This document shows positions 40,290 through 54,402 of a DNA stretch of 64,000 nucleotides, one piece after another. This stretch comes from Aromatoleum aromaticum EbN1. GTDB lineage: Bacteria; Pseudomonadota; Gammaproteobacteria; Burkholderiales; Rhodocyclaceae. Numbering within the stretch: the first letter of the stretch is position 1; the number at the start of each line of letters is the position of its first letter. Position numbers and translations under genes: made by a program. The notes below the pieces were generated by a model. The model made no database searches. It saw only the letters and a list, made by a program, of their open reading frames with translations, and had not been told where the DNA came from. The stretch spans positions 2,418,001 to 2,482,000 of the forward strand of contig NC_006513.1 of assembly GCF_000025965.1 (NCBI RefSeq). The letters are read 5' to 3'.

Positions 40290-41057
40290 ATGAAGCTCAG
40301 GATACTCGGCTGCAGCGGCGGAATCGGCGGACGGGCTTCGGGCACGACGGCGTTCCTCGCCGATGACGACATTCTCGTCGACGCGGGCACTGGCGTCGGC
40401 GAGCTGGAACTCGACGAGTTGCTGCGCATCGATCACGTTTTCGTCACGCACGCACATCTCGACCATATCGTGTCGATTCCGCTGCTCGTCGATTCGGTCG
40501 GCGAACTCCGCGACACGCCGCTGACGGTGTACGCCACGGCGGAGACCATCCGCATGCTGCGCCTGCACGTCTTCAACTGGCAGATCTGGCCGGATTTCAC
40601 GACCATCCCGGATTGCCACCGGTCGTACCTCAGGTTTCATCCCGTCGAACCCGGCCACCCGATCCGGCTCGGAGCGCGAATGGTCACGCCGCTGCCGGCC
40701 CGCCACAGCGTGCCGACGGTCGCCTACTGTCTCGACAGTGGCGAGGGCAAGCTCGTCTATACCGGCGACACCGAGTATTCGACCGAACTGATCGCCGCGA
40801 TCAACGCGCTCGACCACGTGCGCCACCTCATCGTCGAGACCGCTTTCCCCGAAAGCCAGCACGGCCTCGCGCTCACGGCGCGCCACCTGTGTCCCAGCCT
40901 GCTGCATGCGATGCTCGACGAGATCGCCGGGGCGCCCGAAGTCCACATCGCCCACCTCAAGCCGGGCCAGTGCGAACGCATCATGGGCGAGATCGCAGCC
41001 GGAGCCGGACGTCTGCATCCGGTGAGGCTCGAGCAGGGCATGATCCTCGAGTTCTGA
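40290..41057 (+). CDS. Metallo-beta-lactamase-fold hydrolase (cAMP phosphodiesterase class II-like)
   Basis: 255 residues. The metal site HAHLDH is at 54-59, with ARHSVPTVAY, GDTEYS and a C-terminal IAHLKPGQ supplying the other ligands. The N-terminal LGCSGG and the overall pattern resemble class II 3',5'-cyclic nucleotide phosphodiesterases and related RNase Z-like hydrolases. The substrate is not proven. I chose the ATG at 40290; a longer frame from about 40188 would add a poorly conserved leader. It lies between the FHA and GspE-like genes. Confidence 0.82.
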   Translation: MKLRILGCSGGIGGRASGTTAFLADDDILVDAGTGVGELELDELLRIDHVFVTHAHLDHIVSIPLLVDSVGELRDTPLTVYATAETIRMLRLHVFNWQIWPDFTTIPDCHRSYLRFHPVEPGHPIRLGARMVTPLPARHSVPTVAYCLDSGEGKLVYTGDTEYSTELIAAINALDHVRHLIVETAFPESQHGLALTARHLCPSLLHAMLDEIAGAPEVHIAHLKPGQCERIMGEIAAGAGRLHPVRLEQGMILEF

Positions 41058-41131
41058 ATTTCCTGGCGACGCCGGCTAGAATGGCCAGCCTCTGCACGCC
41101 CCCGTTGAAAGCCCCGACACCAGGAACAGGA

Positions 41132-43489
41132 ATGTCCATGACAGCAGCGCCCGGACGGGCCAGGAAAGGTAGCGACGTCGCCGGCCGTCTCGCGTTTTTC
41201 AAAGGACTGCAGGCGATCACGGCACGCATCGATGCCGCCGACGACGTCGATCGCGTCGTCCTCGACCTTTCCGCCGACCTGTGCACGCTGTTCGACGCCG
41301 ACAGCCTGTGCTTCTTCGCCCTCGATGAGGCCGGCACGACGCTCGTCTTGCGCGTCAGGACCGGCCCGGCGCCCGTCGAAGCGCGACTCCCGGTCGCAGC
41401 GCGCAGCATCGCCGGCTACGTCGCACTGCGCCGGCAGCCCGTCAATATTCGCGACGTGCATGACCAGACCGCGCTCCGCGCGCTTTCCCCGGAGCTGCGC
41501 TTTCCCCGGAACGGCGACGAGCGCAGCGGCTACCGCACGCGGCAGGTGCTTGCGGCGCCGCTCATCGATCCCGCGAGCGGCGCGCTGCAAGGCGTGATGC
41601 TGCTGATCAACGTCACGCGCGGCGAGGAATTTTCGGGCGTCGCGAAGGACGGCCTGCTCGGGCTCGCGCAGGCCCTGGGCGTCGCATACGCCCGACAGGG
41701 CAAAGCGCCGGCGGCGCTGCGCTCGCGCTACGATGCGCTGGTCGTCGACGGGCGCCTCGGCGCGGACGAACTCGACGAGGCGGTGCGCCGCGCCCGCGAA
41801 TGGGGTGCGACGGTCGATGAAGTGCTCGTCGCGACTCGCGGCATCGCGCTGTCCGAGCTTGGCGATGCGGCGTCGCGCTTCTTCCACGTGCCGTACGAGC
41901 CTTACCGCCAGGATCGCGTCAAGCAGCTCGACCTGCTGCGCCACATCAAGCGCGAGTACGTGCAGCAGACGGGATGGCTGCCGCTCGAGGAGACTCCCGA
42001 AGGCATCGTCGTGCTAGCGTGGGACCCCGAGCAGGTCCGTGCGTCGCGCATCGCGCACAACGTGTTCCCGAAGCGCCGGCTCGCCTTCCGCGTGACGACG
42101 CGCGACGAATTCGACCGCACCGTCGATCAGTATTTCGAGCCTTCGATGGAGCTCGGTTCGGTGTCCGATCTGCTGCAGGACCTGCCCGAAGACGAGCAGG
42201 ACCTGGTCGCCGACGACGTCCTGGCGGCGGCGGACAACGAACTCGTCAAGCTCGTGAACAAGGTCATCATCGACGCGTATCGGCAGGGTGCGTCGGACAT
42301 CCATGTCGAGCCGCGCCCGGGCAAGGACAAGACGCACATCCGCTTCCGCAAGGACGGCACGCTCGTGCCGTACATCCAGGTGCCGGCGAGCTACCGCAAT
42401 GCGCTCGTGACGCGCCTCAAGATCATGTGCGACCTCGACATCTCGGAGCGGCGCAAGCCGCAGGACGGCAAGATCCGCTTCCGCAAGTTCGCGCCGCTCG
42501 ACATCGAGCTGCGCGTCGCGACGGTGCCGACCGCCGGCGGCATGGAGGACGTCGTGATGCGCCTGCTCGGCCACAGCGAGCCGATCCGGCTCGAGCAGCT
42601 CGGCCTGACCGCGCACAACCTCGAGCGCCTCCGGCGCACGATCGCCAAGCCCTACGGCCTGTTCTTCGTCTGCGGGCCGACCGGCTCGGGCAAGACGACG
42701 ACGCTGCACTCCATCCTCGGCCACCTCAACACGCCGGAAACGAAGATCTGGACTGCCGAAGACCCCGTCGAGATCACGCAGAAAGGGCTGCGCCAGGTTC
42801 AGGTCAACCGCAAGGCCGGCCTCGATTTTGCGACGATGATGCGCGCATTCCTCCGCGCCGATCCGGACGTCATCATGGTCGGCGAAATGCGCGACCTCGA
42901 GACGGTGTCGGTGGGCATCGAGGCGTCGCTGACCGGCCACCTCGTGCTGTCGACGCTGCACACCAACAGCGCGCCGGAATCGATCGTGCGCCTGCTCGAC
43001 ATGGGCATGGACCCGTTCAATTTCGGCGACGCGCTGCTCGGCGTGCTCGCGCAGCGGCTGGCGAAGCGGCTGTGCACCCATTGCCGGCAAGCCTACCGCG
43101 CCGACGAGGCCGAAGTCGTGCAACTGCTCGACGAGTACTGCGAAGACATGCACGCGACGCCTGAATTCCACGCCGATCCGCTGGCCGCCCGCGCCGCGGT
43201 GTTCGATCGGCTGCGCGCGACGCATGCGGATGCCGAAGGGCGCTTCACGCTTTACCGGCCGGTCGGCTGCCCGGAGTGCAACTCCGGCTACAAGGGGCGG
43301 GTCGGACTGCATGAGCTGATGCTCGCCTCGCCCGAGATCAGGCGGATGATCCAGGAGCGCGCGCGCGTCGCGCAGCTGCTGGGTGTCGCGCTCGCCGAGG
43401 GCTTGCGCACGCTGCGCCAGGACGGCATCGAGAAAGTGCTCGGCGGCATCACCGACATGGCGCAGGTGCGGCGCGTCTGCGTGCGTTGA
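41132..43489 (+). CDS. GspE/PilB-family ATPase with N-terminal GAF domain
   Basis: 785 residues. A GAF-like sensor domain (about 20-185), a MshEN/GSPII_E-N region (about 195-340), then the secretion ATPase core. Walker A is GPTGSGKTT at 515-523, followed by an Asp box, Walker B with LRADPDVIMVGEMRD, a His box with LSTLHTN, and a CTHC...CPEC zinc set near the C-terminus. Such ATPases drive type IV pilus or type II secretion assembly. No pilus or secretion genes are adjacent. The GAF domain is not in standard PilB/GspE and suggests small-molecule control, perhaps by a cyclic nucleotide. AGGAACAGG precedes the ATG. Confidence 0.87.
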   Translation: MSMTAAPGRARKGSDVAGRLAFFKGLQAITARIDAADDVDRVVLDLSADLCTLFDADSLCFFALDEAGTTLVLRVRTGPAPVEARLPVAARSIAGYVALRRQPVNIRDVHDQTALRALSPELRFPRNGDERSGYRTRQVLAAPLIDPASGALQGVMLLINVTRGEEFSGVAKDGLLGLAQALGVAYARQGKAPAALRSRYDALVVDGRLGADELDEAVRRAREWGATVDEVLVATRGIALSELGDAASRFFHVPYEPYRQDRVKQLDLLRHIKREYVQQTGWLPLEETPEGIVVLAWDPEQVRASRIAHNVFPKRRLAFRVTTRDEFDRTVDQYFEPSMELGSVSDLLQDLPEDEQDLVADDVLAAADNELVKLVNKVIIDAYRQGASDIHVEPRPGKDKTHIRFRKDGTLVPYIQVPASYRNALVTRLKIMCDLDISERRKPQDGKIRFRKFAPLDIELRVATVPTAGGMEDVVMRLLGHSEPIRLEQLGLTAHNLERLRRTIAKPYGLFFVCGPTGSGKTTTLHSILGHLNTPETKIWTAEDPVEITQKGLRQVQVNRKAGLDFATMMRAFLRADPDVIMVGEMRDLETVSVGIEASLTGHLVLSTLHTNSAPESIVRLLDMGMDPFNFGDALLGVLAQRLAKRLCTHCRQAYRADEAEVVQLLDEYCEDMHATPEFHADPLAARAAVFDRLRATHADAEGRFTLYRPVGCPECNSGYKGRVGLHELMLASPEIRRMIQERARVAQLLGVALAEGLRTLRQDGIEKVLGGITDMAQVRRVCVR

Positions 43490-47757: not shown

Positions 47758-49752
47758 TCAGGCGGAGCGTACTTGGCGCAGCGCCGGATGAACCTGTTCG
47801 ATCTCTTCGAGCGGATGCTTCCTGCCCGCCGGCGACAGCGCCGTGTAGGCGCCCAGCATGTCGGCGGGGAGCCGCCCGACGATGCCGAACAGGTCTGCGA
47901 AGCGCACCCCCTGGCGCACCAGGTAAGCGATGTAGCTGTGGCGCAGCGCCGCGCACGTGATCTCGTCCGCGCCGGGGATGCCCGCATCGTGTGCGGCATA
48001 AAGAAGCGTCGCGTCGAGCGCGTCCGGCGTCCCGTCACTCGCGGCGTCGACGACAGGGCTGTCGTCCGTTTGCGGATGGTGTTCGCGGTACCGGCCCAGC
48101 TGTGCCGCCAGTGCCGCAGACAGCGGCACGACGCGGTCGGGCAGGAGAATCTGCCTGCCGGGCAGATCGACCGCAGGCCATTTCAGCCGCGCGAGTTCAT
48201 CGAACGACAGGCCGGAAAGCAGCGCGAGCGCGCCGAGGCGGGCGTCGTCGGGCAGTTCGTCGAGCAGGTGGGCGATCTCGGCTTCGTCGAGTTCGCGCGG
48301 CAGTTGCGCGGCGCTGGCGAGCAGCGCCGACGGCGCGAACTGGCCAAGCGCCTCCGGTGAGCGCATCGGCAGCTGCACGCTGCGCGGCCATGCGGGCGCG
48401 ATGACGAGCGACGGAGCCGGAGTGGTGCGGTTGAACAGCTCGACGATCCAGGTCGTCAGCAGCGCGAGCAGCAGCGACGCCGTCACGCCGATCGCCGCGT
48501 CCCGGCCGTATTGCGGCCGCCAGGGCTCGGCCGGCGGGAAAGCCGCTTCGAGCGTCGTGACTTCCGGAACGCGGATCCTCTCCGCGGCCTGCAGTCCGGT
48601 CGCCCTGACGACCGCCGCCCGGTGCATCTCCTCGAGTCCGGTCAGCTCCTCCTGCATCGCCTTGAACTCGCCCAGACGCGCCGTGAACGCCTGGACCGTC
48701 CGCCGCTCGCCGCCCGCCTGTTGAGCCAGCCGGTCGACGGCCGCGCGCGCCGCTGCGACTTCCTCTTCGGCGTCGCTCAGCGCTGCCTGCTGCCCTCTTT
48801 CGCGGACCTGTTTCATCTGTTCGTCCAGGCTCGCGATCCGCGTGCGCAAGGCCTTGGCGCGCGGATCGAACGCGAGGAAGTCCGGGGTGTAGGCCCGCTC
48901 CAGCTCGTGCTGCTCCTCGCGCAACTGCGAGGCACGCTGCTCGATGTTCGACAGCGTCGGGTTGTCGCGCGCCCGGACGATCGACTTGCCGGCGGCGATC
49001 GAATCGCGCAGCGAACGCAGTTTCGCTTCGGCTGCGACGAGTCGGTCGTTCGCCGCGTTCAGCGATTGTCCGACGCCCTTGACCTGGCTGAGGACGTGGT
49101 TTTCGTCGCGCTCGAGCGCGACGATGTCGTGGTTGCGGCGATAGTCGTCGAGCGCGCGCCGCTTTTCGGCGACGCGCTCTTCGAGCTTCGTGGCCTCGTC
49201 CTGCGCCCTGGTCGCGCGGCTGCCCGAATCCTGGCGATAACGTTCGGCGAGCTGGCCGCGGTAAGTGTCGATCAACGCGTTGACGAGCGGAGCGAGCGCG
49301 TCGGCCGGCCTGCCGCTCGCTGTGAGCTCGACGACGTCCGTTCCCTCGACCGGTGTCGCGTCGAGCATCCGCCGGTAGTCCTCGATGCTATCGCCGCCAT
49401 CGCCGGAGCCGGCAGGCAGCGGTGTGCCGATGCCGGCGAGCCGGGCAGCGGCTTTCTCGACGAGCGGACGGCTCGTGAGCACTTCGACTTCGGTCAGGAA
49501 CGCAGCCCGGACCGCGGTTCTGCGCTCATCGGCAGTGTCGCCGTTGCCCGGCATGTCGATCCGCAGCCGCGCGGCGGTGCGGTATTCGGCGGGACGCGAG
49601 TAGTCGTAGATCAGGCTCGCGGCGGCGAGCAGCAGGAAGCTCAGGCCGAAGACGGCAACGCGCCGCCGCTTGGGCGGTGCCGAGTACGCGGTCGGGGCGA
49701 GGCCGGGCCAGAACGGATCGACAGTGGCCGGGCCGGTGTCGTCGCGGATCAT
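47758..49752 (-). CDS. Wzz/GNVR-type chain-length protein fused to a tyrosine-recombinase-like domain
   Basis: 664 residues. A Wzz-type part spans 1-440: TM1 at about 32-50, a long periplasmic coiled-coil region (about 175-380), a Pro-rich FPPAEPWRP before TM2, and TM2 at 418-438. In polysaccharide co-polymerases the tail would be absent or a BY-kinase. Here residues 490-640 resemble the catalytic domain of tyrosine recombinases: GLSFDELARLKWPAVDL, VVPLSAAL, ALRHSYIAYLVRQGV and a tyrosine-containing AYTALSP. Of the catalytic set only R604 and Y636 are kept; S516, A601 and R627 replace Arg, His and His/Trp. It is probably inactive as a recombinase. No polysaccharide genes are adjacent. Confidence 0.75.
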   Translation of the reverse strand: MIRDDTGPATVDPFWPGLAPTAYSAPPKRRRVAVFGLSFLLLAAASLIYDYSRPAEYRTAARLRIDMPGNGDTADERRTAVRAAFLTEVEVLTSRPLVEKAAARLAGIGTPLPAGSGDGGDSIEDYRRMLDATPVEGTDVVELTASGRPADALAPLVNALIDTYRGQLAERYRQDSGSRATRAQDEATKLEERVAEKRRALDDYRRNHDIVALERDENHVLSQVKGVGQSLNAANDRLVAAEAKLRSLRDSIAAGKSIVRARDNPTLSNIEQRASQLREEQHELERAYTPDFLAFDPRAKALRTRIASLDEQMKQVRERGQQAALSDAEEEVAAARAAVDRLAQQAGGERRTVQAFTARLGEFKAMQEELTGLEEMHRAAVVRATGLQAAERIRVPEVTTLEAAFPPAEPWRPQYGRDAAIGVTASLLLALLTTWIVELFNRTTPAPSLVIAPAWPRSVQLPMRSPEALGQFAPSALLASAAQLPRELDEAEIAHLLDELPDDARLGALALLSGLSFDELARLKWPAVDLPGRQILLPDRVVPLSAALAAQLGRYREHHPQTDDSPVVDAASDGTPDALDATLLYAAHDAGIPGADEITCAALRHSYIAYLVRQGVRFADLFGIVGRLPADMLGAYTALSPAGRKHPLEEIEQVHPALRQVRSA

Positions 49753-50025: not shown

Positions 50026-50589
50026 TCAGTTGAAGCCGGGCGTGAAATCGGGCGTCGTGCCCTCGCCTGCGGCAAGGGACGGGCGGCCCCGCAGGGCGGT
50101 GAGAATGCCCGCGAGGATGTCGGCCGGGGGAGGGGGGCAGCCGGGAACAGTGACGTCCACCGGGATGACATTCGATATACGCCCGCAGCTCGCGTAGCTC
50201 TCGCCGAAAATGCCGCCGGTGCAGCCGCAGTCTCCGATTGCGACGACGAGCTTCGGCGCCGGGATCGCATCGTAGGTGCGCTTCAGCGCGAGCTCCATGT
50301 GCCGCGACACCGGCCCGGTGACGAGCAGCATGTCGGCATGACGCGGGCTTGCGACGAACTTGATGCCGAGTCCCTCGATGTTGTAGTAGGGGTTGTTCAG
50401 CGCGTGGATCTCGAGTTCGCAGCCGTTGCACGAGCCGCCGTCGACATGTCGGATCGCCAGCGCGCGGCCGAGGATCGCGAGAATGTCGGCGTGGATCAGG
50501 TGTGCCCGGTGGCGCGACGGGGAAAGGGTCGGAGAGGCCGATGTGCCGGGACGGCGATGGCGGGCGATGTACTTGAGAATGTGCCACAT
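50026..50589 (-). CDS. hyfI: NuoB/HyfI-like small subunit of a hydrogenase-related complex
   Basis: 187 residues. The 4Fe-4S (N2-type) ligands are in place: C54-x2-C57, C121 (GDCGC) and C151 (PGCPPPP). The rest of the fold, with the DGGSCNGCELE start and the GGIFG loop, matches the small subunit of group 4 [NiFe] hydrogenases and complex I. The start overlaps the large-subunit stop by one base (TGATG). It is the last gene of an operon read leftward from 58188. The symbol follows hydrogenase-4 naming by position only. Confidence 0.87.
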   Translation of the reverse strand: MWHILKYIARHRRPGTSASPTLSPSRHRAHLIHADILAILGRALAIRHVDGGSCNGCELEIHALNNPYYNIEGLGIKFVASPRHADMLLVTGPVSRHMELALKRTYDAIPAPKLVVAIGDCGCTGGIFGESYASCGRISNVIPVDVTVPGCPPPPADILAGILTALRGRPSLAAGEGTTPDFTPGFN

Positions 50590-52133
50590 CACAGATCCTG
50601 CGCGGAATAGCCGAGGTTGAAGGACTTGTTGATCAGCGGGAAGTCGGCGACGATGTTGTCGATGCTCGCGTGCTCGATCACCGGCCAGTTCTGCCACGAC
50701 GGATCGTGGCAATGGCAGCGCGCGATGCGCCCGCGCGCATCGGTTTCGAGCGCGACGAATATTTCGCCGCGCCAGCCTTCGATCCAGCCGGCACCGGACG
50801 CCGCGTCGCGAATCGCGACCGGGGCATCGAGCGGGCCGTCCGGCAGCGCGGCGAGCAGCGCGTCGATCAGCCGCAGCGACTCGAAGCATTCGTCGAAGCG
50901 CACTGCGACGCGGGCTGCGACGTCGCCGTTGAACTGCGTGGACGCAGTCACCGCGAGCTTGTCGTACGGCGGCCACGGAAAGTCCACGCGCAGGTCCGCG
51001 ACCTGCCCGCTCGCGCGCCCGGCGAGCCCGGTCAGCCCGAGCCGCGCGGCGAGTTCCGGAGCGACCCGGCCGGTCGTCACGAAACGGTCCTGCAAACCGG
51101 CGTGCTCGTCGTAGATGTCCTTCAGTTCGGCAACCTCGGCGACGAGCGCAACTGCGTCGCGACGCAGTTGCGCCGCCGCGGCGGCGTCGAGATCGCGCGC
51201 AACGCCCCCCGGGCGGATGCAGTCCATCAGCAGCCGGTGGCCGAACGCCTCGAAGTTCGCCCGCAGCCAGTCTTCGCGCAGGCGCGAGAACTGCGCGAGC
51301 GCGAAGCCGAACGCGGCGTCGTTGCCGAGTGCGCCGAGGTCGCCGAGGTGGTTCGCGACGCGCTCGCGCTCGAGCAGCAGCGCGCGCAGCCACGCGGCCC
51401 GCTCCGGCACCGCCACGCCAGCAGCCGACTCGGCCGCCATTGCGTAGGCCCACGCATACGCCACGGTGCTGTCGCCGGACACGCGCCCCGCCAGCCGCGC
51501 CCCTTCGTCGATGTCCATGCCCATGAAGCGGCGCTCGATGCCTTTGTGCGTGTAGCCGAACCGCTCCTCGAGGCGCAGCACTTTCTCGCCGACGACCGAG
51601 AAGCGGAAATGCCCCGGCTCGATCGTGCCGGCATGCACCGGCCCGACCGCAATCTCATGCACGCCGTCGCCTTCGACAAAGACGAAGGGGTAGTTGTCGG
51701 GCTGCGGCGCGAAGCGCTCCTGGCCGGTGTTCTCGATGCGCAGCGGGAAGTAGTCGGCCGGCCACGCGCCGTGGCGCAGCCACGGGCGGGAGTCCCCGCT
51801 GTCCTCGGCGTCGATGCCGACGAGGTCGTGTGCGGCGCGCTGCATGCGGACTGCGGGGACGAAGAAGCGCGAGATGTCCGGGTAAGCCGGGCGCACGACG
51901 TCGAGTCCGAGCTCCGCCCAAAGCAAGCCTTCCGCGGTTGCGTACGCGGCCCCCACCGCAAAACCGTCGCCCATCGCGCGCCGGTCGCTGCCCCACAGGC
52001 TCACGAGGCGGCCTTTCGCTGTGGCGACCGCGAGCGCGAGCGCGCTCCACTGCGTGGCATCGACGCGGGCGCGATGCATCGGCAGCGGCGCAGCGAGCCG
52101 TTCGAAGCGGCAATCGAGTCCGGAAAATTGCAT
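50589..52133 (-). CDS. hyfG: NuoCD/HyfG-like large subunit lacking the [NiFe] cysteines
   Basis: 514 residues: an N-terminal NuoC-like part (1-130) then a NuoD/hydrogenase-like part. The N-terminal CxxC of [NiFe] hydrogenases is replaced in RVSGDS (residues 217-222; both Cys are Ser). At the C-terminus DPCxxC is replaced by DPSWQNW (477-483). No residue set for Ni-Fe binding remains, so it should not catalyse H2 turnover. The ATG at 52133 has GGGAGACC upstream. The NKSFNLGYSAQDL tail resembles Ehr-type proteins such as mycobacterial HycE. The 155 bases before it contain a repeat. Confidence 0.87.
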   Translation of the reverse strand: MQFSGLDCRFERLAAPLPMHRARVDATQWSALALAVATAKGRLVSLWGSDRRAMGDGFAVGAAYATAEGLLWAELGLDVVRPAYPDISRFFVPAVRMQRAAHDLVGIDAEDSGDSRPWLRHGAWPADYFPLRIENTGQERFAPQPDNYPFVFVEGDGVHEIAVGPVHAGTIEPGHFRFSVVGEKVLRLEERFGYTHKGIERRFMGMDIDEGARLAGRVSGDSTVAYAWAYAMAAESAAGVAVPERAAWLRALLLERERVANHLGDLGALGNDAAFGFALAQFSRLREDWLRANFEAFGHRLLMDCIRPGGVARDLDAAAAAQLRRDAVALVAEVAELKDIYDEHAGLQDRFVTTGRVAPELAARLGLTGLAGRASGQVADLRVDFPWPPYDKLAVTASTQFNGDVAARVAVRFDECFESLRLIDALLAALPDGPLDAPVAIRDAASGAGWIEGWRGEIFVALETDARGRIARCHCHDPSWQNWPVIEHASIDNIVADFPLINKSFNLGYSAQDL

Positions 52134-52288
52134 GTCAGGTCTCCCGCCGGGCCGCCCCAAGGGAGGCCTGCGCCCCCTCGGGGGGGTGAGGCAGGGGTTT
52201 CGCGGCGCACTGCGCCGTGCCTGCCGAACGGGCCGGCTGTGCAAAGCCGGCCCTTCGCGAACAAAGTGAGTGTGGGGGTCGTTTCACT
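52134..52288. repeat. GC-rich intergenic repeat inside the hydrogenase-related operon
   Basis: 155 bases between hyfF- and hyfG-like genes. They contain strong hairpins (GGGCCGGC / GCCGGCCC with an 8-base loop; CCCCCTCGGGGGG) and motifs such as GGGCCGCCCCAAGG and GTGTGGGGGTC. From memory these resemble dispersed intergenic repeats in betaproteobacteria. It may be a REP-type element or an mRNA processing site between two parts of the operon. No ORF of note. Confidence 0.5.
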
Positions 52289-53743
52289 CTAGCCTCCGAT
52301 CATGCGCGCGGCCTCGCGGTACCAGCCGTCGAGCCAGGGCGGGATGTAGAGCCCGAGCATCAGCGCGAGCCCGAGATGGACGAACACCGGCAGCAGCGCG
52401 GGCGGATGCGGGAGCGGGCGCAGCGAGGTTTCGCCGAACACCATCGGCTGGACGTGGCCGAAGATCGCCGCGAAGGCGACGCCGAGCGCGACGAGCAGGA
52501 ACGGCGTCGCCCACGGCAGCTCGCGCATCGCCGTCGTCAGGATCAGGAACTCGCTCGCGAATACGCCGAATGGCGGCATGCCGAGGATCGCGAGCGTGCC
52601 GAGCATCAGTGCCCAGCCGACGGTCGGATTCACTTTCAGCAGGCCGCGGATGTCGTCCATCAGTTGCGAGCCGGCTTTCTGCGCCGCATGGCCGACGGCG
52701 AAAAAGATCGCCGACTTAACCAGCGCATGTACCGTCATGTGCAGCAGCCCGGCGAAGTTCGCGATCGGGCCGCCGAGGCCGAACGCGAACGTCATCAGGC
52801 CCATGTGCTCGATCGACGAGTACGCGAACATGCGCTTGACGTCACGCTGGCGCGACAGGAAGAAGGTCGCGACGACGACCGTGACCAGGCCGAAGCCGAT
52901 CATCATGCGCCCCGGCAGGCCGTTCGCAAGGGCGCCGTCGGCGAGCACCTTGCAGCGCAGCACCGCGTACAGCGCGACGTTGAGCAGCAGCCCCGACAGC
53001 ACCGCCGAGATCGGCGTCGGGCCTTCGGCGTGCGCGTCGGGCAGCCAGTTATGCACCGGCACGAGGCCGACTTTCGTGCCGTAGCCGAGCAGCAGGAACA
53101 CGAACGCGAGCGACAGGATCGACGGGTCGAGCAGGTGCTTCGATTCGGCAAGATGCGTCCACAGCAGCGCTCCGTCGCCACCGCCGATCGCGCGTTCCGC
53201 GGCGAGGTAGAGCAGGATCGTGCCGAAGAGTGCCTGGGCGATGCCGACGCCGCACAGGATGAAGTATTTCCACGCCGCTTCGAGGCTCGCCGCGGTGCGA
53301 TACACCGACACCAGCAGCACGGTCGTCAGCGTCGCGGCTTCCATCGCGACCCACAGGATGCCGAGATTGTTGGTCGTCAGCGCGAGCAGCATCATGCCGT
53401 TGAAGAGCTGGTACATGCTGTGGAAGAGCCGCATGCGCTGCGGCGTCATCTTGCCGTGGTCGCGCTCGATGCGCATGTAGGGGCGGGAGAACAGCGACGT
53501 CGTGAAACCGACGAACGCGGTCAGCGTCACGAGGAACACGTTGAGCGCATCGACGAAAAACCACTCGTTCCACGCGAGCAGCGGCCCGCCGCGGATCACC
53601 TGCACGGTCAGCCACGCCGCCGCGGCCAGCGTAGCGAGACTGACCGCAGCGTTCAACTCCGGCGCCCATTCGCGTTCGCCCCACAGCGCGAGCAGCGCAC
53701 CGCCGGCGAGCGGAATCGCGAGGACGAGCAGCAGCGCTTCCAT
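52289..53743 (-). CDS. hyfF: HyfF-like membrane antiporter subunit (NuoM/N family)
   Basis: 484 residues, about 13-14 transmembrane helices. It has the proton-translocation features of MrpD/NuoN-type subunits: the glutamate in WVAMEAATLTTVL, the lysine-rich helix LLLGYGTKVGLVPVHNWLPDAHAEG and the AYSSIEHMGLM segment. The start at 53743 overlaps the hyfE-like stop by one base. It provides a likely ion-pumping module to the complex. Confidence 0.9.
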   Translation of the reverse strand: MEALLLVLAIPLAGGALLALWGEREWAPELNAAVSLATLAAAAWLTVQVIRGGPLLAWNEWFFVDALNVFLVTLTAFVGFTTSLFSRPYMRIERDHGKMTPQRMRLFHSMYQLFNGMMLLALTTNNLGILWVAMEAATLTTVLLVSVYRTAASLEAAWKYFILCGVGIAQALFGTILLYLAAERAIGGGDGALLWTHLAESKHLLDPSILSLAFVFLLLGYGTKVGLVPVHNWLPDAHAEGPTPISAVLSGLLLNVALYAVLRCKVLADGALANGLPGRMMIGFGLVTVVVATFFLSRQRDVKRMFAYSSIEHMGLMTFAFGLGGPIANFAGLLHMTVHALVKSAIFFAVGHAAQKAGSQLMDDIRGLLKVNPTVGWALMLGTLAILGMPPFGVFASEFLILTTAMRELPWATPFLLVALGVAFAAIFGHVQPMVFGETSLRPLPHPPALLPVFVHLGLALMLGLYIPPWLDGWYREAARMIGG

Positions 53744-54402
53744 CAGTCCTCCTTGAGCTTTTCCAGATGGCGGATGTCGAGGCTGTCGAACTGTTCGCGG
53801 ATCTGGAACATGAACACGCCGAGGATCAGAATGCCGACCAGCACGTCGAATGCGATGCCGAGCTCGACGATCATCGGCATGCCCGAGGTCGCCGCGGTCG
53901 CCGCGAAGAACAGGCCGTTCTCCATCGACAGGAAGCCGATGACCTGGGGCACCGCTTTCGCGCGCACGATCATCATCAGGAACGACAGCAGTACACACGC
54001 GAGCGCGATGCCGAGCGTGCCACGCGCGATCGACGCTGATAGCCCGGCGATCGGTGCGGCCAGATTGAACGCGAAGATCACCAGCACGATGCCGATCAGC
54101 ATCGTTGTCGGGATGTTGAAGAGGGTCTCGACGTCCCAACGAACGTTGAGCCGTTCGATGACCCGGTGCAGCAGGATCGGGATCAGGATCACCTTCAATA
54201 CGAAGGTCATTGCGGCCGAGTAGTAGAGGTGATGCTGACCCGTGAGAAAGCCGACGATCAGCGTCGCCGCCGCCAGCGCCGCGCCCTGCAGCGTGAAGAG
54301 GTGGATCAGCGTCAGGATGCGCCGCTGCGCGATCATCGCGAACGCGAGCACCAGTAGCACGACGGCGAACAGGTTGATCGACTGGGCGAGCAGCGAGGTC
54401 AT
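53743..54402 (-). CDS. hyfE: HyfE-like membrane subunit
   Basis: 219 residues with about six to seven helices (AQSINLFAVVLLVLAFAM, VPQVIGFLSMENGLFFAATA). This is the HyfE/NuoK-related part; the E in SMENG resembles the NuoK glutamate. It occurs with HyfF in hydrogenase-4-like complexes. The gene is followed by hyfF with a 1-base overlap and preceded by the hyfC-like gene after 6 bases, so it belongs to the same operon. Confidence 0.88.
   Translation of the reverse strand: MTSLLAQSINLFAVVLLVLAFAMIAQRRILTLIHLFTLQGAALAAATLIVGFLTGQHHLYYSAAMTFVLKVILIPILLHRVIERLNVRWDVETLFNIPTTMLIGIVLVIFAFNLAAPIAGLSASIARGTLGIALACVLLSFLMMIVRAKAVPQVIGFLSMENGLFFAATAATSGMPMIVELGIAFDVLVGILILGVFMFQIREQFDSLDIRHLEKLKED

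Follow-up and report, generated by a model that had tools for sequence, protein, structure and literature searches.

How polysaccharide co-polymerases (PCPs) set chain length is still debated, and a gene of Aromatoleum aromaticum EbN1 adds a further question: what does a domain resembling a tyrosine recombinase do at the end of a membrane protein of this kind? The gene lies in a 64,000-nucleotide stretch (the window) of the 4,296,230-base EbN1 chromosome, and its frame is open without interruption from 49752 down to 47758 on the minus strand (664 amino acids followed by a stop codon, Table 1). Upstream of it, the minus-strand genes between 50026 and 57600 resemble, mostly by eye, a group-4 hydrogenase or complex-I-like operon, in which Pfam confirms the 49 kDa and 30 kDa complex I domains at 50589-52241 and gives no match at 53743-54402. 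On the plus strand, at 40613-43489, a secretion/pilus-type ATPase (T2SSE) shares one frame with MshEN and GAF, and its start codon may sit downstream of the listed one.

We examined the first 440 residues, which the initial annotation had described as a PCP with two helices and a coiled coil. The NCBIfam profile of the XrtA-system chain length determinant (TIGR03007) matched the single protein with an E-value of 2.6e-9, its 35.8 bits lying below the curated cut-off of 278.85 that marks an equivalog, and the EpsF profile matched at 3e-5, also under its curated cut-off. Across the 56 aligned members of the family, TIGR03007 was found at E<=0.001 in 55 and Pfam Wzz at E<=0.01 in 18 (best 1.3e-7), the EbN1 protein not being among these 18. 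The AlphaFold2 model of the full-length protein (pLDDT 81.2, pTM only 0.41) has helices at residues 28-52 and 415-440 and strands at 56-66, 130-134 and 140-147, with long helices between; residues 415-440 are the predicted second membrane helix, preceded by a proline-rich motif, and P413 and Y415 are invariant in the 56-row alignment. A Foldseek search with this model gave Wzc first (9r68, E 1.3e-10) and also matched KpsE, WzzE and XerA; since the query-normalised TM-scores are only 0.15-0.32, these are local similarities. The PCP description is thus supported by TIGR03007, by the predicted structure and by the matches to Wzc, KpsE and WzzE. The gene does not sit in a glycan locus in EbN1, a setting that is usual for a PCP, but not strictly defining.

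The same annotation had read residues 490-640 as tyrosine-recombinase-like, and here profiles, structure prediction and structure search all returned integrase-fold matches. With the single protein, XerA_Arch (NCBIfam) matched residues 482-622 at 8.8e-7, under its curated cut-off, XerA in the PDB (4a8e) was matched at 8.7e-5, and Pfam PF00589 reached 15-18 bits, under its cut-off of 27.1 (E 0.019 with the whole protein and 0.0018 when only the tail was used). A family profile of the tail matched XerA at 1.1e-12 and XerD in the PDB at 1.8e-8, and among the 56 aligned members XerA_Arch was present at E<=0.001 in 47 and Phage_integrase (PF00589) at E<=0.01 in 34 (best 4.5e-10). AlphaFold2 predicted the tail with a pLDDT of 86.7 and a pTM of 0.83; when this model was compared with the PDB by Foldseek, a check that had been proposed at the outset, XerA was the best match (9.0e-7, TMq 0.65), and the best 50 of the 128 matches at E<=10 were all tyrosine recombinases, phage or transposon integrases or the related repressor MrpR. 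Both folds are thus predictions on which profiles, AlphaFold2 and Foldseek agree. Residues 444-664 match no kinase family in Pfam or NCBIfam, and hence no BY-kinase domain of the kind that carries Walker motifs. The earlier wording that the domain stands in place of a kinase is fair as topology, but the EbN1 XrtA locus has a kinase and a PCP as separate genes anyway.

Table 1. Features of the fusion gene, in positions of the window
Feature	Position	Strand	Basis
Whole fusion gene: PCP, linker and pseudo-tyrosine-recombinase, 664 aa	47758..49752	minus	ORF and full-length homologues
First membrane helix, residues 28-52	49597..49671	minus	AlphaFold2 helix over a hydrophobic stretch; probably transmembrane
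PCP periplasmic alpha/beta base, long coiled coil and second membrane helix, residues 53-440	48433..49596	minus	Profiles, AlphaFold2, Foldseek; membrane location predicted
Mostly disordered linker, residues 441-480	48313..48432	minus	pLDDT <50 at 446-479; probably on the cytoplasmic side
Tyrosine-recombinase catalytic-domain fold, degenerate and acidic, residues 482-651	47800..48309	minus	Profiles, AlphaFold2, Foldseek, alignment
S516, site of catalytic Arg-I (Arg in 0/56 rows)	48205..48207	minus	Alignment
A601, site of catalytic His-II (His in 0/56 rows)	47950..47952	minus	Alignment
R604, site of catalytic Arg-II (Arg in 52/56)	47941..47943	minus	Alignment
Y636, site of catalytic Tyr (Tyr in 50/56)	47845..47847	minus	Alignment
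C-terminal tail past the recombinase fold, residues 652-664; P656 nearly invariant	47761..47799	minus	56-row alignment

The recurrence of the fusion in relatives, another check proposed with the initial annotation, was confirmed by 55 further homologues from beta- and gamma-proteobacteria, which rule out a sequencing error or fusion artefact. These were aligned with the EbN1 protein; the few rows cut by contig ends (e.g. L070 and L074) were retained, and four duplicates of named loci (L035, L037, L039 and L041) and two fragments (L087 and L089) were dropped beforehand. A first survey of 60 other genomes gave seven with both halves and four more with a match to the PCP part only. The fusion was present in 10 of the 399 genomes of the order, where at most three candidates were scored per genome, and in 6 of the 369 genomes of the class, EbN1 being included in both counts; the class survey gave three further matches, in frames of 235-384 codons, that resemble ordinary recombinases. 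Matches were also obtained at 47 named loci, two of them short fragments and a few others cut by contig ends. A recheck with the full profile covered the six Nitrosomonas-type genomes scored as negative and also G041; the latter matched in the PCP part only. Among the named carriers are Aromatoleum, Thauera, Candidatus Nitrotoga, Candidatus Accumulibacter, Nitrosomonas, Nitrosovibrio, Methylobacter, Methylotuvimicrobium and an Ectothiorhodospiraceae bin.

For comparison, 25 loci with ordinary recombinases (L096-L098 and L101-L122) yielded 17 distinct domains of at least 110 aa, of which L117, a near-copy of L114, and L121, a short piece, were left out of the tail tree and the count of catalytic residues, leaving 15. 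The key residues had originally been described as reduced to R604 and Y636, with S516, A601 and R627 replacing the others, and the alignment with these 15 recombinases bears this out: S516, A601, R604, R627 and Y636 align with R-I, H-II, R-II, H/W-III and Tyr, respectively. All five catalytic residues are present in 15/15 of the ordinary recombinases, which were called by homology in EbN1 and related genomes. In the fusion rows, Arg-I and His-II are found in none of the 56 and His-III in four, and in L033, L063 and L070 Arg-II and Tyr are gone too. By eye, the fusion rows lack the GKG.K hairpin that most of the recombinases have, and the EbN1 protein is the shortest of them there. The residue set of a tyrosine recombinase (R, K, H, R, H/W, Y) is incomplete, the hairpin lysine being judged by eye. 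Since R-I and H-II are lost in every row, the whole family, and not the EbN1 member alone, appears catalytically dead, which sharpens the earlier suggestion that the domain is probably non-catalytic. It is almost certain that the tail is a recombinase fold without catalytic activity, joined to a PCP. The retention of R-II and Tyr in most rows could hint at some residual role. G514, R540, D589, L611, G615, L621 and G626 are invariant over the 56 fusion rows, and Q614 (55/56) and P641 (53/56) are conserved in the fusion and not in ordinary recombinases.

The loss of catalysis alone decides nothing on DNA binding, because a catalytically dead relative, MrpR of prophage SPbeta, still binds DNA in the account that passages of PMC10516654 give of it. 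Fusion tails, cut from residue 465 onward, have a negative net charge in 53 of 56 rows (median -8, pI 5.06; -12 in the EbN1 protein), the three remaining, Nitrosomonas-type rows being slightly positive (+1 to +2), whereas the ordinary recombinase domains of these genomes and their relatives, trimmed to the family-profile match with ten more residues, are positive in 17/17 (median +8, pI 10.2), these 17 including the near-copy and the short piece. In addition, no core-binding domain precedes the fold; in the AlphaFold2 model, residues 446-479 are disordered instead. The tail thus has no core-binding domain and, judged by net charge, no basic DNA surface, an acidic total being still compatible with a local basic patch. 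A membrane-anchored DNA-binding protein, in which the dead fold would serve in regulation or anchor chromosomal DNA at the membrane, has a solved precedent in MrpR (PMC10516654, in the passages concerned; row 48 of the Foldseek list for the tail) and would agree with the retention of R-II and Tyr. However, the same passages give MrpR an N-terminal core-binding domain, where the fusion has a disordered linker, and the tail is acidic where recombinase domains are basic. We consider this explanation improbable, and the tail probably no longer binds DNA. Of the roles first proposed for the domain, namely DNA binding, a scaffold or protein contact, DNA binding is therefore the less likely branch, because the tail is acidic and a disordered linker replaces the core-binding domain.

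A membrane-bound XerD-like face could also touch FtsK or Xer proteins, as a decoy or docking partner of the chromosome machinery, and the catalytic domain of XerD has indeed been solved with the FtsK gamma domain (5dcf, row 16 of the Foldseek list). Against this, no Xer or division gene occurs among 20 neighbours scanned with Pfam, and the fusion gene is sporadic, whereas Xer and FtsK are general; such a role seems highly unlikely.

We also considered how the fusion arose and whether its tail is maintained. In a tree of the PCP half, 21 fusion rows lie on one side of a 100/100 branch, with 14 XrtA PCPs and three others on the opposite side, and in a tree of the tail 21 fusion rows are likewise separated from the 15 recombinases by a 100/100 branch. 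The PCP tree omits two rows in which a frame other than the PCP was the longest, and the program warns of long branches. The trees fit one origin of the fusion, which, according to the program, they permit rather than demonstrate. A search of plasmid and phage collections for a mobile origin gave no match at E 1e-5. In 10 Aromatoleum pairs, the dN/dS of the tail was 0.24-0.47, with the highest value based on a dS of only 0.027, and that of the PCP half 0.12-0.18, showing that the tail is under purifying selection, though less constrained than the PCP half. The roughly twofold higher value of the tail is what might be expected if it were a degenerating passenger, a captured piece of recombinase without a function of its own. 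Yet the ratio is still 0.24-0.47, seven tail residues are invariant over 56 rows and beta- and gamma-proteobacteria alike have retained the tail, so that we give this explanation very little weight.

The surroundings of the gene were then compared across the family. No neighbour is conserved throughout, most scanned neighbours are unrelated to glycans, and the gene-like ORF clusters adjoining the fusion are mostly common to one genus or family only, such as the ppc/hemC region in Nitrosomonas and a glycosyltransferase with a fatty-acid hydroxylase in Methylococcaceae. Among 20 chosen neighbours scanned with Pfam, five had no match; the others included uvrC (twice), NAD kinase, cytochrome b561, a response regulator, a FecR/LysM protein, a glycosyltransferase 2, an ABC transporter, a nucleotidyltransferase (PF14907), a fatty-acid hydroxylase, a transposase, a lytic transglycosylase and a CDP-alcohol phosphatidyltransferase. 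The two uvrC genes lie downstream of the fusion in distant lineages, Accumulibacter-like (L030) and Methyloprofundus (L060), by chance or through an old linkage. In a gammaproteobacterial bin, an HprK-related kinase A (TIGR04352, over cut-off) and the PF14907 nucleotidyltransferase lie upstream of the fusion (L055:7312-9338). A sigma-54 promoter, an idea taken from the RpoN-dependent PEP-CTERM gene described in a passage of PMC9850573, was rejected, as candidates were not enriched upstream of the fusion (6 of 54 usable stretches, against 10% of Markov shuffles; two of the 56 stretches were too short).

The initial statement that no polysaccharide genes adjoin the gene holds in EbN1; however, EbN1 has an XrtA locus at a distance of about 35 kb, and a few relatives do have sugar-nucleotide genes nearby. 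One sugar-epimerase cluster covers four loci and yet contains two kinds of gene: galE, within about 5.5 kb of the fusion in L053 and L078, and a TviC-like epimerase (below cut-off), which lies 1-3 kb downstream in L063 together with a nucleotide-sugar dehydrogenase (TIGR03026, over cut-off) and within about 5.5 kb in L070. In seven methanotroph loci (L056, L065, L071, L073, L080, L082 and L088), the fusion is followed downstream by a glycosyltransferase gene of the same orientation, which in six of them overlaps it or lies no more than 45 bases away and in L088 lies 253 bases away, and in five of the seven a fatty-acid-hydroxylase-type gene comes next. The one glycosyltransferase scanned with NCBIfam, that of L065, scores as TIGR04283, which NCBI names for arsenosugar biosynthesis and not for exopolysaccharide.

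The EbN1 XrtA exopolysaccharide locus has its own PCP, and nine of its ten scanned ORFs score over curated cut-offs, namely the PCP, an autokinase, an outer-membrane protein, an ATPase, a WecB-type epimerase, a deacetylase, a FemAB protein, exosortase A and a glycosyltransferase. Exopolysaccharide and flocs have been linked with exosortase or PEP-CTERM genes in passages of PMC9850573 and PMC11072679. In the order, XrtA is over its cut-off in 98 of 399 genomes, namely in 10/10 carriers of the fusion compared to 88/389 others (Fisher p 5.6e-7, uncorrected for kinship); the XrtA and fusion tallies were taken as the same 399-genome set, having the same handles and tallies. Among ten listed genomes of a Nitrosomonas-type genus (g36) with an exosortase-type match, XrtA is over the cut-off in 4/4 carriers and 0/6 non-carriers, and a TIGR03007 match at 1e-20 is also absent from these six; the 229 genomes outside the list may contain more of g36. 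Genus g26 gives three carriers with XrtA and one checked non-carrier, G041, in which XrtA is not over the cut-off. An exosortase was found in 20/20 carriers and 19/27 non-carriers of a chosen comparison set, and XrtA over the cut-off in 19 of 20 carrier genomes examined; in carrier G679, an exosortase is present and XrtA is not over the cut-off. The link is one-way, because 8 of 12 Aromatoleum non-carriers also have XrtA. Hence, the fusion looks dependent on the XrtA system, but not required by it. A replacement of the ordinary XrtA PCP by the fusion is ruled out, since 19 of 20 carriers keep that PCP over its cut-off.

No gene of the XrtA locus was found as a conserved neighbour of the fusion. 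This, together with G679 and with the dehydrogenase and epimerase genes near the fusion in L063, L053, L070 and L078, would suit a protein that acts on another glycan, such as O-antigen or capsule, as an independent co-polymerase or as a scaffold of the exporter, the association with XrtA then reflecting a biofilm lifestyle or kinship. Since carriage tracks XrtA within genus g36 among the listed genomes, and no glycan gene is a general neighbour, we regard this as a possible but less convincing explanation. The reading that we prefer, with a probability of about 0.5, is that the fusion protein serves the XrtA/PEP-CTERM exopolysaccharide system as an accessory co-polymerase, in which the dead recombinase fold may be reused as a cytoplasmic protein-assembly module. 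The sugar-nucleotide genes close to the fusion in L053, L063, L070 and L078 count in favour of this reading too.

As an accessory co-polymerase, the N-terminal part would build the usual PCP assembly from its pair of membrane helices and its periplasmic coiled coil, next to the polymerase or export machinery. The flexible linker would display the dead fold on what is probably the cytoplasmic side, where Wzc holds its kinase. The tail would most likely be a protein-contact module, packing with its own copies round the PCP ring or docking a cytoplasmic partner, and its contacts may tune the length or attachment of the polymer. In the inner membrane, PCPs assemble into rings, and true recombinases associate cyclically, each passing its C-terminal segment to a neighbour; a PCP ring with a cyclic recombinase fold beneath it would therefore suggest a cytoplasmic ring or docking site. 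Because the active site and the DNA-friendly charge are lost, many bacteria of soil and water seem to have turned a former DNA enzyme into a building block of a slime-making machine. We tentatively extend this to a bolder proposal, for which the odds are somewhat against: the fold would be wholly out of DNA work, and its capacity for cyclic assembly would build or gate a cytoplasmic ring under the co-polymerase, making the fusion a third kind of PCP.

A search of open-licence papers found no description of a fusion between a PCP and a recombinase, so that, as far as our searches could tell, the domain architecture is new for the PCP family and adds a new cytoplasmic domain to co-polymerases. 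If our interpretation is correct, a tyrosine-recombinase domain has been reused across a whole family as a membrane-bound and apparently non-DNA protein module. The fusion is carried, among others, by nitrifiers, Accumulibacter, Thauera and methanotrophs, which are known from sludge flocs and biofilms and for which exopolysaccharide is of practical weight, and the link to XrtA offers a testable place for the fusion protein.

In comparison with known systems, the fusion shares with Wzc-type PCPs, its best full-length fold match, the arrangement of a PCP with a cytoplasmic C-terminal domain, but it carries a recombinase fold where Wzc carries a BY-kinase. The XrtA-system chain length determinants (TIGR03007) have a similar PCP layout; however, their frames of about 510-570 codons, one of them in the EbN1 XrtA locus, are shorter than the 664 aa of the fusion, and the 14 placed in the PCP tree fall on its other side. 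XerA and XerD resemble the tail in catalytic-domain fold and sequence, whereas the fusion lacks the catalytic Arg-I and His and the core-binding domain, is acidic and is joined to a PCP. With MrpR, as portrayed in the passages cited, it has in common a recombinase fold reused after the loss of catalysis, MrpR differing in its core-binding domain and DNA binding where the fusion has a disordered linker. The third kind of PCP tentatively proposed here would join the bare Wzz type and the Wzc type with its kinase.
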